Under the pieces are notes generated by a model. That model saw only the letters and a list, made by a program, of their open reading frames with translations, had not been told where the DNA came from and ran no database searches. From assembly GCF_026339995.1 (NCBI RefSeq), contig NZ_JAPEPT010000003.1, positions 434,001 to 498,000 of the forward strand: a DNA stretch of 64,000 nucleotides, in the 5' to 3' direction. Both the position numbers and the translations under genes were made by a program. Source of the stretch: Streptomyces sp. NBC_01481. Lineage in GTDB: Bacteria; Actinomycetota; Actinomycetes; Streptomycetales; Streptomycetaceae. Shown here one piece after another: positions 52,421 to 58,534 of the stretch (positions are counted from its first letter, which is position 1; each line of letters starts with the position of its first letter).

Positions 52421-53263
52421 ATGGCCAACGTCGTACGCGCCGCACTTGTCCAGGCAACCTGGACCGGCGACACCGAATCCATGATTGCCAAGCACGAGGA
52501 ACACGCCCGTGAGGCGGCCCGCCAGGGCGCGAAAGTGATTGGTTTCCAGGAAGTATTCAACGCTCCCTATTTCTGCCAGGTCCAGGAGCCCGAGCACTAT
52601 CGCTGGGCCGAGCCCGTCCCGGACGGCCCCACCGTCCGCCGGATGCAGGAGCTCGCCCGCGAGACCGGCATGGTGATCGTGGTCCCGGTGTTCGAGGTCG
52701 AGGGCGCGGGCTTCTACTACAACACCGCCGCGGTGATCGACGCCGACGGCACTTACCTCGGTAAATACCGCAAGCACCACATTCCCCAGGTCAAGGGCTT
52801 CTGGGAGAAGTACTACTTCAAGCCGGGGAATCTGGGCTGGCCGGTCTTCGACACGGCGGTGGGCAGGGTGGGGGTGTACATCTGCTACGACCGGCACTTC
52901 CCGGAAGGCTGGCGTCAACTGGGCCTGAACGGCGCCCAGTTGGTCTACAACCCGTCCGCGACCTCGCGTGGCCTCTCCGCATACCTCTGGCAGCTGGAGC
53001 AGCCCGCGTCCGCCGTCGCGAACGAATACTTCATCGCCGCGATCAACCGCGTCGGCCAGGAGGAGTACGGCGAAAACGACTTCTACGGCACCAGCTATTT
53101 CGTCGACCCCCGGGGCCAGTTCGTCGGTGAGGTCGGCAGCGACAAAGAGGAGGAACTGCTTGTACGCGACCTCGACTTCGACCTGATCGATGTCGTACGC
53201 CAGCAGTGGGCCTTCTACCGCGATCGCCGCCCGGACGCGTACGAGGGGCTGGTGCAGCCGTGA
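52421..53263 (+). CDS. Beta-ureidopropionase-like nitrilase superfamily amidohydrolase
   Basis: A 280-residue CN-hydrolase. The catalytic triad is E44 (GFQEVFN), K118 (KYRKHHIPQ) and C155 (GVYICYDRHFPEGWR). The sequence, with ATSRGLSAYLWQLEQPASAV and NDFYGTSYFVDPRG, is of the N-carbamoyl-beta-alanine/N-carbamoyl-putrescine type. Next to dihydropyrimidinase, it most likely cleaves N-carbamoyl-beta-alanine to beta-alanine, CO2 and ammonia. An aaggag Shine-Dalgarno precedes the ATG. The next gene starts in a GTGA overlap. Confidence 0.92.
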   Translation: MANVVRAALVQATWTGDTESMIAKHEEHAREAARQGAKVIGFQEVFNAPYFCQVQEPEHYRWAEPVPDGPTVRRMQELARETGMVIVVPVFEVEGAGFYYNTAAVIDADGTYLGKYRKHHIPQVKGFWEKYYFKPGNLGWPVFDTAVGRVGVYICYDRHFPEGWRQLGLNGAQLVYNPSATSRGLSAYLWQLEQPASAVANEYFIAAINRVGQEEYGENDFYGTSYFVDPRGQFVGEVGSDKEEELLVRDLDFDLIDVVRQQWAFYRDRRPDAYEGLVQP

Positions 53264-54543
53264 CCAGCCTGTACGACCGGCACCGGGCCGTCATCCCGGA
53301 CTGGGTCGCCCTCTACTACAAGCAGCCTGTCGAGATCACGCACGGTGAGGGCCGCCATGTCTGGGACGCGGACGGCAACCGCTACCTCGACTTCTTCGGC
53401 GGCATCCTCACCACCATGACCGCCCACGCCCTGCCCGAGGTCACCAAGGCCGTCAGCGAGCAGGCCGGGCGGATCGTCCACTCGTCCACGCTGTATCTCA
53501 ACCGCCCGATGGTCGAGCTCGCCGAGCGGATCGCCACCCTCTCCGGCATCCCCGACGCCCGGGTCTTCTTCACCACCTCCGGCACCGAGGCCAATGACAC
53601 CGCCCTGCTGCTGGCGACCGGATACCGCCGGTCCAACCAGGTCCTGGCGATGCGCAACAGCTACCACGGCAGGTCCTTCTCGGCTGTCGGTATCACCGGC
53701 AACCGGGGCTGGTCGCCGACCAGTCTCTCCCCGCTGCAGACGCTGTACGTGCACGGCGGCGTCCGCACCCGCGGCCCCTACGCCCAGCTGTCCGACGCGC
53801 AGTTCATCGAGGCCTGCGTCGCGGACCTGGAGGACATCCTCGGCCAGACCCGGGGCTCGGTCGCGGCGCTGATCGCCGAGCCCATCCAGGGCGTCGGCGG
53901 CTTCACATCCCCGCCCGACGGCTTGTACGCCGCGTTCCGCGAGGTCCTGAACCGGCACGGCATCCTCTGGATCGCCGACGAGGTGCAGACGGGCTGGGGC
54001 CGCACCGGCGAGCACTTCTGGGGCTGGCAGGCGCACGCCGACAGCGGGCCGCCCGACATGCTCACCTTCGCCAAGGGAATCGGCAACGGCATGTCGATCG
54101 GCGGTGTCGTCGCATCCGCCGAGGTCATGAACTCCCTGGACGCCAACTCCATTTCGACCTTCGGCGGCTCCCCGGTCACCATGGCGGCGGGCATCGCCAA
54201 CCTCTCGTATCTGCTGGAGCACGACCTCCAGGGCAACGCCCGCCGCGTCGGCGGCCTGCTGATCGAGCGGCTGCGAGCCATCGGGGCGGGCGTCGCCGCC
54301 GTACGCGAAGTACGCGGCCGCGGCCTGATGATCGGCATCGAGCTGGTCAAGCCCGGCACCGACGAGGCGAACCCGGAGGCGGCATCGGCCGTCCTGGAGG
54401 CCGCGCGCGAGGGCGGCCTGCTGATCGGCAAGGGCGGCGGCCACAACACCAGCGTCCTGCGGATCGCCCCGCCGCTCTCACTGACCGTCTCCGAGGCGGA
54501 AGAGGGCGCCGTCATCCTCGAACAGGCCCTGCACAAGGCGTAG
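53260..54543 (+). CDS. Class III aminotransferase (beta-alanine/omega-amino acid type)
   Basis: A 427-residue PLP enzyme. VFFTTSGTEANDTALLLATG binds the phosphate, IADEVQTGWGRTGEHFWGW holds the PLP ring Asp, and FAKGIGNGMSIGG carries the Schiff-base K272. The profile fits alanine-glyoxylate aminotransferase 2 and beta-alanine-pyruvate aminotransferases. In this operon it should convert beta-alanine (or 3-aminoisobutyrate) to malonate semialdehyde. It starts with GTG in a GTGA overlap with the amidohydrolase. Confidence 0.93.
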   Translation: MTSLYDRHRAVIPDWVALYYKQPVEITHGEGRHVWDADGNRYLDFFGGILTTMTAHALPEVTKAVSEQAGRIVHSSTLYLNRPMVELAERIATLSGIPDARVFFTTSGTEANDTALLLATGYRRSNQVLAMRNSYHGRSFSAVGITGNRGWSPTSLSPLQTLYVHGGVRTRGPYAQLSDAQFIEACVADLEDILGQTRGSVAALIAEPIQGVGGFTSPPDGLYAAFREVLNRHGILWIADEVQTGWGRTGEHFWGWQAHADSGPPDMLTFAKGIGNGMSIGGVVASAEVMNSLDANSISTFGGSPVTMAAGIANLSYLLEHDLQGNARRVGGLLIERLRAIGAGVAAVREVRGRGLMIGIELVKPGTDEANPEAASAVLEAAREGGLLIGKGGGHNTSVLRIAPPLSLTVSEAEEGAVILEQALHKA

Positions 54544-54575
54544 TCGACCGTACGCACGAGAGGGAGCGCACCACC

Positions 54576-56996: not shown

Positions 56997-57010
56997 AGGG
57001 CGAGCCGCCT

Positions 57011-58534
57011 GTGACTGCGACCGTCCCCTCCGGAGAACCCATAATCGACCAGGACGGCCGCGTCGAGCTTGCGCCCGGCGCGGCACCCTCCGACAACCGC
57101 TTCGTCAACGACGATCTGCTGCCCGTACCGGTCGCGCAGCGCCGCTGGACGACGTACAACTTCGCGGCCCTGTGGGTCGGCATGGCCCACAACATCCCGT
57201 CCTGGCTGCTCGCCTCCGGACTCGTCACGCTCGGCATGGACTGGAAACAGGCGGTGTTCACCATCGCCCTGGCCAATCTGATCGTGCTGTTCCCGATGCT
57301 GCTGACCGGGCACGCGGGACCCAAGTACGGCATCCCCTTCCCCGTTCTCGCCCGGGCCTCCTTCGGCCTGCGCGGGGCGAATCTGCCCGCGCTGATCCGG
57401 GCGGGGGTGGCCTGCGCCTGGTTCGGCATCCAGACCTGGATCGGCGGCCAGGGCATCTTCGTCCTGCTCGGCAAGATCTTCGGCGGCTGGGCCGAGGCCG
57501 CGGAGGTCGGCGGGCAGCCGTGGACGCTGTGGGTGTGCTTCGTGCTCTTCTGGGCGCTCGAACTGGCCATCATCTACCGGGGGATGGAGGCGCTGCGGCG
57601 GTTCGAGAACTGGGCGGCGCCCTTCGTCATCGTCGGCGCGCTGGTGCTGCTGGTGTGGATCGCCACGAAGGCGGGCGGCCTCGGCCCGCTGCTCGACCAG
57701 CCGTCCAAGCTGGGCTGGGGCGCGGACTTCTGGACGGTCTTCTTCCCCTCCCTGATGGGGATGATCGCCTTCTGGTCGACGCTCTCCCTGAACATCCCCG
57801 ACTTCACCCGCTTCGGAGCCGGTCAACGGGCCCAGATCTGGGGGCAGTCGCTCGGGCTGCCGACGACCATGACACTCTTCGCCCTGCTGTCGGTCTTCGT
57901 CACCTCCGGCTCGCAGGCGGTGTACGGCGTTGCCGTCTGGGACCCTGTCCAGCTCGCCGCCAAGACCGACAATGTCTTCGGGCTGCTCTTCGCCCTGGTG
58001 ACCGTGCTGGTCGCGACGCTCTCGGTGAATATCGCGGCGAACGTCGTCTCACCGGCGTACGACCTGGCGAACCTCGCCCCGAAGGTGATCAACTTCCGTA
58101 GGGGAGCGCTGATCACGGGCGTCGTCGGGGTGCTGATCATGCCGTGGAAGCTCACCGAGACACCCGAGCTCTACATCTTCACCTGGCTCGGTCTGGTCGG
58201 CGGGCTGCTCGGCACGGTCGCGGGCATCCTCATCGCCGACTACTGGGTCGTCCGCCGCACCGTGCTCGACCTGCCCGGTCTCTACACCCCCGGCGGCCGC
58301 TACTGGTACGCCTCCGGCTGGAATCCGCGCGCGGTCGCGGCCTTCGTGGTCGGCGGTGTGCTGGCGGTGGGCGGATCGCACTCCGCGCCCGGCAAGGGGC
58401 CCTTCCCCGAGGACGGCCTCATCCCGTTCCTGAAGCCGCTCGCCGACTACGGCTGGGCGGTGGGGCTGGGGGCTTCGCTCGTGCTCTACATGGTGCTGAT
58501 GCTGCCGGAGCGGGCCCGGCTGACCGCAGGCTGA
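57011..58534 (+). CDS. NCS1 family nucleobase:cation symporter
   Basis: A 507-residue transporter with about 12 membrane helices. The N-terminal cytoplasmic part ends at RRWTTYNFAALWVGMAHNIP, the NCS1 signature, followed by HAGPKYGIPFPVLARASFGL and GGQGIFVLLGKIF. SLNIPDFTRFGAGQRAQIWG is the conserved substrate/cation region. It imports uracil, hydantoin, allantoin or a similar ring; the operon favours a pyrimidine or hydantoin. GTG start 14 bases after the LLM stop. A terminator follows. Confidence 0.93.
   Translation: MTATVPSGEPIIDQDGRVELAPGAAPSDNRFVNDDLLPVPVAQRRWTTYNFAALWVGMAHNIPSWLLASGLVTLGMDWKQAVFTIALANLIVLFPMLLTGHAGPKYGIPFPVLARASFGLRGANLPALIRAGVACAWFGIQTWIGGQGIFVLLGKIFGGWAEAAEVGGQPWTLWVCFVLFWALELAIIYRGMEALRRFENWAAPFVIVGALVLLVWIATKAGGLGPLLDQPSKLGWGADFWTVFFPSLMGMIAFWSTLSLNIPDFTRFGAGQRAQIWGQSLGLPTTMTLFALLSVFVTSGSQAVYGVAVWDPVQLAAKTDNVFGLLFALVTVLVATLSVNIAANVVSPAYDLANLAPKVINFRRGALITGVVGVLIMPWKLTETPELYIFTWLGLVGGLLGTVAGILIADYWVVRRTVLDLPGLYTPGGRYWYASGWNPRAVAAFVVGGVLAVGGSHSAPGKGPFPEDGLIPFLKPLADYGWAVGLGASLVLYMVLMLPERARLTAG

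Follow-up and report, generated by a model that had tools for sequence, protein, structure and literature searches.

The window, a stretch of 64,000 nucleotides from contig NZ_JAPEPT010000003.1 of Streptomyces sp. NBC_01481, contains at positions 52421–58534 of the forward strand an operon of five genes, one of which encodes a luciferase-like F420-dependent oxidoreductase (LLM) of the family TIGR03842, for which a role in pyrimidine breakdown is proposed here. An operon with transporter, ring-opening, decarbamoylating and transaminating genes next to a TIGR03842 protein had been set out in the preliminary description, and open reading frame (ORF) and family searches confirmed all five genes, on a single strand and with their positions unchanged:

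52421..53263, + strand: carbon-nitrogen (CN) hydrolase, proposed N-carbamoyl-beta-alanine (beta-ureidopropionate) amidohydrolase (PF00795, 239 bits, cut-off 23)
53260..54543, + strand: class-III aminotransferase, proposed beta-alanine/beta-aminoisobutyrate transaminase (PF00202, 291 bits, cut-off 30.5)
54576..55982, + strand: dihydropyrimidinase / D-hydantoinase (TIGR02033, 564 bits, cut-off 393)
55995..56996, + strand: LLM protein, proposed F420H2:uracil/thymine reductase (TIGR03842, 594.6 bits, cut-off 295.45)
57011..58534, + strand: NCS1-family nucleobase/hydantoin transporter, proposed pyrimidine importer (TIGR00800, 448.7 bits, cut-off 353)

The start codon of the aminotransferase sits within the stop of the preceding CN hydrolase gene, and the intergenic gaps that follow are 32, 12 and 14 bp.

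The LLM protein is 333 residues long and covers TIGR03842 over its full length (positions 1–329 of 329). When its AlphaFold model (pLDDT 93, pTM 0.92) was ranked against known folds with VIA-align 2, the F420-dependent methylenetetrahydromethanopterin reductase Mer came first (Z 37), followed by the F420 alcohol dehydrogenase Adf (Z 33), the F420 glucose-6-phosphate dehydrogenase Fgd (Z 30–32) and RutA (Z 25), the first 15 rows by Z being F420 enzymes throughout. Mer, Fgd and Adf were also the top sequence matches in the PDB, and by nearest relatives as well as by fold the protein joins the F420-dependent luciferase-like hydride transferases. Mer is the closest both by sequence (E 3e-30) and by fold (318 residues aligned) and shares a VTNP stretch with the LLM protein. 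However, the protein falls under the Mer cut-offs of TIGR03555 (117.6 vs 348.7) and NF002619 (127.5 vs 276), and Glu6, the residue mutated in 8qq8 and presumably catalytic in Mer, is replaced in all 62 aligned members of the TIGR03842 family, by V in 30/30 and by T or C in 32/32. A Mer orthologue was excluded by these cut-off scores and by position 6.

RutA of the Rut pathway has the same LLM superfamily fold and acts on uracil, an analogy on which the preliminary description had drawn. RutA is an oxygenase using flavin mononucleotide (FMN) that opens the ring oxidatively. Unlike RutA, which as the E. coli control scored 726 bits against TIGR03612, the LLM protein gave no match to this family among the 18 families found at E 1e-3, and a RutA-like oxygenase was excluded by family score and fold rank. 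The analogy proved weak, Mer, Adf and Fgd all being closer.

The genome of the strain (7.7 Mb, 95.75% complete) was searched for the known ring enzymes. With E. coli PreA as query a single match was found at E ≤ 1e-3 (29% identity over ~150 aa); it is a quinone-type PyrD (TIGR01036, 411 bits, cut-off 200) and not a hidden PreA, and apart from it no PreA orthologue was found at this limit. Nor was there a RutA orthologue, the E. coli RutA query returning seven weak matches to distant LLM proteins, the best with E 8e-13 and 34% over ~210 aa. The earlier observation of an operon lacking PydA/PreTA and RutA was upheld. TIGR03842 has nine matches in the genome, among which the window protein alone exceeds the cut-off, and since one match to CofH, a protein of F420 synthesis, also exceeds its cut-off (527.6 bits, cut-off 374) the strain is expected to make F420.

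When 394 genomes of the same class were compared, TIGR03842 was found in 115, spanning 36 genera and 18 families, and TIGR02033 above cut-off in 118. Both occur in 112 genomes, the LLM alone in three, the dihydropyrimidinase alone in six and neither in 273 (Fisher p = 1e-86, a value that ignores shared ancestry). From a table of distances, with coordinates transferred by hand and eight TIGR02033 rows under the curated cut-off dropped, the dihydropyrimidinase gene was seen to lie immediately upstream of the LLM gene, on the same strand and within 500 bp, in 84 of the 115 genomes and at 0.5–5 kb on the same strand in a further 26; because this adjacency (≤5 kb) is conserved in 110/115 genomes, a chance association is excluded. 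PreA was found in 0/394 genomes at E 1e-90 or better (profile NF006183, a limit that divergent PydA-like proteins would escape), and it was detected in the positive controls, E. coli and Deinobacterium. The genome search for pydA/preT suggested in the preliminary description thus ended with PreA absent from both the strain and its class, preT not being searched by itself.

The dihydropyrimidinases from ten LLM-adjacent positions are 62–68% identical to that of the window, as against 35–55% in the six LLM-less genomes examined. A CN hydrolase is present in 8 of 10 actinobacterial loci with LLM and dihydropyrimidinase, the remaining two beginning at a contig end, and both Chloroflexota and further actinobacterial families keep its gene beside this pair. 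In three of these loci (G100, G038 and G116) a methylmalonate-semialdehyde dehydrogenase (MMSDH; 701 bits in G100, cut-off 448) is placed between dihydropyrimidinase and LLM. Breakdown of uracil and thymine would call for this dehydrogenase in its last part, and hydantoin breakdown would do without it. In G029, a genome without a TIGR02033 match, the LLM gene adjoins a uridine phosphorylase (TIGR01719, 358 vs 250; L051:8515-16041) and a cytidine deaminase lies ~5 kb from it. G029 is one of the five genomes of 115 outside the conserved adjacency, the others being G074, where the LLM gene lies a short way into a small contig and adjoins a truncated dihydropyrimidinase, G308, with the two genes on separate contigs, G229, where the LLM gene is found with the CN hydrolase (69%), and G269. 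Within the genus of the window, G269 has a split operon (L054, L055; C2:570001-615500), with LLM and NCS1 34 kb from dihydropyrimidinase and aminotransferase and a second, partial dihydropyrimidinase copy between the halves, and G277 has neither gene at the limits used.

Outside the class, a tblastn search of plasmids revealed LLM relatives of 42–44% identity in Paracoccus alcaliphilus and Leisingera, and in both annotated plasmid loci the LLM gene comes last in a single cluster after cofG, cofH, the 2-phospholactate transferase gene cofD, cofC, cofE and npdG, that is, after genes for F420 synthesis and an NADPH:F420 reductase. A scan of one genome per species (84,980 species) was then used, from which the best 80 of 587 relatives were taken as loci; the confirming sequence was that of Leisingera, hence a bias towards this clade, and the bit thresholds for calling neighbouring genes were our own. 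Among the 62 proteobacterial loci an F420 gene is nearby in 54 (npdG in 44, cofH in 34) and a pyrimidine gene in 41, namely dihydropyrimidinase in 19, an M20 or CN-hydrolase carbamoylase in 29, a RutR-like regulator in 27 and thymidine phosphorylase in 2. All 12 Chloroflexota loci have a dihydropyrimidinase or CN hydrolase, 10/12 an MMSDH and 0/12 an F420 gene near the LLM gene, and four of the six remaining loci have both dihydropyrimidinase and CN hydrolase. MMSDH exceeds its cut-off in L060, L115 and L132 and thymidine phosphorylase does so in L128. PreT/PreA (60 bits) and RutA (100 bits) gave no match near any of the 80 loci.

Nearly the entire set is gathered in Vibrio sp. S9_S30, where cofH, cofD, cofC, cofE, npdG, LLM and NCS1 are joined by an M20 carbamoylase (440 vs 204), a dihydropyrimidinase (619 vs 393), an AptA transaminase (722 vs 500), an MMSDH (662 vs 448) and a RutR-family gene under its cut-off (192 bits, cut-off 368). 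In Paracoccus denitrificans the strand opposite to dihydropyrimidinase and M20 carbamoylase carries cofG to npdG, the LLM gene and a RutR-like gene; the F420 cluster ends in the LLM gene and is also flanked by part of an NCS1 transporter, which the end of the locus truncates. A gammaproteobacterial metagenome-assembled genome (MAG) has, within ~10.5 kb and with other genes interspersed, the order thymidine phosphorylase (630 vs 571), NCS1, dihydropyrimidinase, LLM and transaminase. Together the partner genes found elsewhere, those for F420 synthesis, NADPH:F420 reductase, RutR-like regulators, MMSDH and the two phosphorylases (of thymidine and of uridine), indicate F420 and pyrimidines.

Genome tests for PreA (limit 1e-50), TIGR02033 and CofH covered the named genomes of 50 of the 80 loci. 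TIGR02033 is present in 50/50, and PreA exceeds the cut-off in 5/50, with one further weak match. When seven PreA regions were examined, four (L158, L159, L160 and L163) were found to hold PreT-PreA together with a RutR-like gene, an M20 carbamoylase and a dihydropyrimidinase of their own, L161 a RutR-like gene and a transaminase, L162 PreT-PreA alone and L166 the weak match alone, so that a RutR-like gene accompanies PreT-PreA in 5/7. In the order of P. denitrificans (149 genomes) PreA was found in 134, and TIGR03842 and CofH in two each, which are the identical two genomes. One is P. denitrificans, with TIGR03842 present and PreA not found, and the other, G586, has the PreA and TIGR03842 systems together.

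CofH was found in 36 of 51 TIGR03842 genomes tested. The CofH-less genomes are six of Devosia/Pelagibacterium, eight Chloroflexota MAGs and Microlunatus flavus. All nine Devosia-type loci (L116-L121, L125, L129, L144; ~4000-15000) combine the LLM gene with predicted F420-0 ABC transporter-like genes and a CofE-like ligase, and 8/9 also have an F420 glucose-6-phosphate dehydrogenase there. Family scans of two of these loci put the substrate-binding and permease genes of the transporter above the cut-offs of TIGR03868 and TIGR03869 and the dehydrogenase above that of TIGR03554, while the one transporter ATPase scanned is under the cut-off of TIGR03873. These bacteria probably scavenge the F420 cofactor by what appears to be a salvage cassette, and the absence of CofH as a disproof of F420 is partly explained for the Devosia-type genomes because the predicted importer genes adjoin the LLM gene.

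What is seen at these loci is a conserved gene set, the absence of the standard dehydrogenase, a tie to F420 genes and an F420-type fold. From gene context and fold we infer that the operon probably serves reductive pyrimidine catabolism, with the TIGR03842 protein as an F420H2-dependent uracil/thymine reductase replacing PreT-PreA. The proposed partner steps, dihydropyrimidinase, carbamoylase, transaminase and transporter, would be the same as in the reductive (Pyd) pathway of PreT-PreA/PydA, whereas the proposed first enzyme has no relation to PreA, being a protein of the F420 type with a luciferase fold, and many proteobacterial TIGR03842 loci carry an F420 operon or an F420-0 importer. As regards substrate, direction and each catalytic step, the pathway we infer would start with NCS1 bringing uracil or thymine into the cell. 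The TIGR03842 enzyme would transfer a hydride from C5 of F420H2 to C6 of uracil, with protonation of C5, giving 5,6-dihydrouracil or dihydrothymine; F420H2 would come from NADPH:F420 reductase in Proteobacteria or from glucose-6-phosphate oxidation in Devosia-type bacteria. Dihydropyrimidinase would then open the ring, the CN hydrolase would act on the N-carbamoyl-beta-amino acid with release of ammonia and CO2, beta-alanine or beta-aminoisobutyrate would give up the second nitrogen to the aminotransferase, and the resulting semialdehyde would be turned into acetyl- or propionyl-CoA.

A close analogy to such a replacement of PreT-PreA is found in PMC12507026, where a putative F420-dependent LLM yanthine reductase is proposed from gene neighbourhood for uric-acid clusters of Chloroflexota. 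There too an F420 LLM protein would replace a reductive dearomatising enzyme of the PydA or YgfK type; the pathway differs in being one for a purine (uric acid), with SsnA, and the family named is PF00296, not TIGR03842. According to PMC8498797, LLM enzymes also take part in reductive picrate degradation.

Several observations weigh against the proposed uracil/thymine reductase. PreA and TIGR03842 occur together in the 5/50 named genomes and in G586, a full TIGR02033 match is lacking in three class genomes with TIGR03842 and six show the opposite, and no pyrimidine gene is near the LLM gene in 21/62 proteobacterial loci or in L145 and L150, which also have neither dihydropyrimidinase nor CN hydrolase. 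CofH is absent in 15/51 genomes, and the nine from Chloroflexota (8/8 MAGs tested) and Microlunatus flavus (L131-L143, L151), which have TIGR03842 and dihydropyrimidinase and no CofH in the genome, are not covered by the importer explanation and speak against a dependence on F420 in these lineages; the cofactor there could be another one. The substrates of the CN hydrolase and aminotransferase could, judged by their sequences, also be others. The closest PDB relative of the CN hydrolase is an N-carbamoylputrescine amidase (5h8i, E 2e-60), its score against the corresponding family TIGR03381 being under the cut-off (263 bits, cut-off 410), and the next are the beta-ureidopropionases 2vhh, 8pt4 and 6ftq (E 1e-52 to 1e-49). 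The aminotransferase is under the cut-off of every one of the 25 NCBIfam families displayed (of 69), and a PDB sequence search gave nothing at E ≤ 1e-70, so that its substrate is a putative one.

The alternative that survives best, itself improbable, is the degradation of hydantoins or other cyclic ureides, in which the LLM protein would carry out a redox step on a side group or ring bond and the aminotransferase and CN hydrolase would act on amino-acid products. TIGR02033 includes D-hydantoinases along with dihydropyrimidinases, the closest PDB sequence to that of the window is the D-hydantoinase 4kqn (E 1e-156, with the dihydropyrimidinase 3sfw at E 3e-151), and the sole solved NCS1 relative is the hydantoin transporter Mhp1, to which both PDB matches of the transporter belong (E 6e-35). 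However, the RutR-like, MMSDH, thymidine/uridine phosphorylase and cytidine deaminase neighbours indicate uracil and thymine, hydantoin hydrolysis requires no redox step, and N-carbamoyl-D-amino-acid amidohydrolase (1erz, E 3e-28) is a more distant relative of the CN hydrolase than beta-ureidopropionase is. The preliminary description had placed the F420-dependent step in either pyrimidine or hydantoin breakdown; comparative genomics supports the former, and the latter gains little support.

Even less probable is a late role for TIGR03842 as an F420-dependent malonate/methylmalonate semialdehyde reductase, the first step being left to an unknown enzyme elsewhere. The F420 alcohol dehydrogenase Adf is related and among the nearest folds, and the operon of the window has a transaminase and, in the family search, no semialdehyde enzyme among its genes. 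On the other hand, an MMSDH already accompanies the LLM gene in the 10/12 Chloroflexota loci, L115 and L060-L062, the dihydropyrimidinase is the tightest LLM partner, and a ring reductase of the PreA type is found in 0/394 class genomes and 5/50 named ones. Least probable of all is pyrimidine reduction with a flavin (FMNH2) or other cofactor, at least in lineages without F420 genes, which would suit the eight Chloroflexota MAGs and Microlunatus flavus and the many FMN enzymes among luciferase-fold relatives but is opposed by the LLM gene terminating F420 biosynthetic clusters in Proteobacteria, by its coincidence with CofH in the same two of 149 genomes, by the predicted F420-0 importer adjoining it in 6/6 CofH-less Devosia-group genomes and by the 15 nearest folds all being those of F420 enzymes.

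Just 5' of the operon, at 50510-52174, is a 554-residue ORF without Pfam matches at E 0.001, and a little way 3', at 59685-61693, are an amidase (NF004717, 759 bits, cut-off 498) and then a TetR-type regulator. A 195-residue protein of the cytidine/deoxycytidylate deaminase fold (PF00383) is encoded nearby on the opposite strand (62856-63443, -). More distant LLM proteins were also met with on plasmids. Variovorax sp. PBL-E5, from linuron-contaminated soil, has a different LLM protein (30% identity), whose gene is clustered with cofGHDCE, npdG and genes for a CN hydrolase, an amidohydrolase and RidA (L072:5414-15973), perhaps another F420-dependent catabolic route. Neither this protein nor that of a Natrinema plasmid (30% identity, no annotated pyrimidine gene nearby) was counted as TIGR03842, and the matches in Rhodococcus sp. 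USK10 (33%) and, partial, in Caballeronia were left out of the reading.

In the open-access literature, with preprints and most subscription journals outside the coverage, no paper assigning a function to TIGR03842 or using this term was found. The assignment proposed here would give a function to a curated family (F420_CPS_4043) whose reaction is unassigned, and would supply the missing entry step for the use of pyrimidines in the genus of the window and in many other actinobacteria; for Mycobacterium smegmatis, PMC4617892 describes the pyrimidine pathway genes as incompletely identified. On a wider scale we lean slightly towards TIGR03842 being the uracil/thymine reductase of a third pyrimidine catabolism across Actinomycetota, Pseudomonadota and Chloroflexota, and towards many marine and soil Proteobacteria making F420, and Devosia-type bacteria importing F420-0, chiefly for this enzyme. 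The 2021 review PMC8498797 counts the reason for F420 synthesis in Proteobacteria and Chloroflexi among the open questions, and for P. denitrificans it reports no more than traces of F420. Because the F420 cluster of that bacterium ends in the LLM gene amid pyrimidine genes, the purpose of F420 in Proteobacteria is directly testable there, and the proposed reductase would, if true, explain F420 production in some other bacteria.

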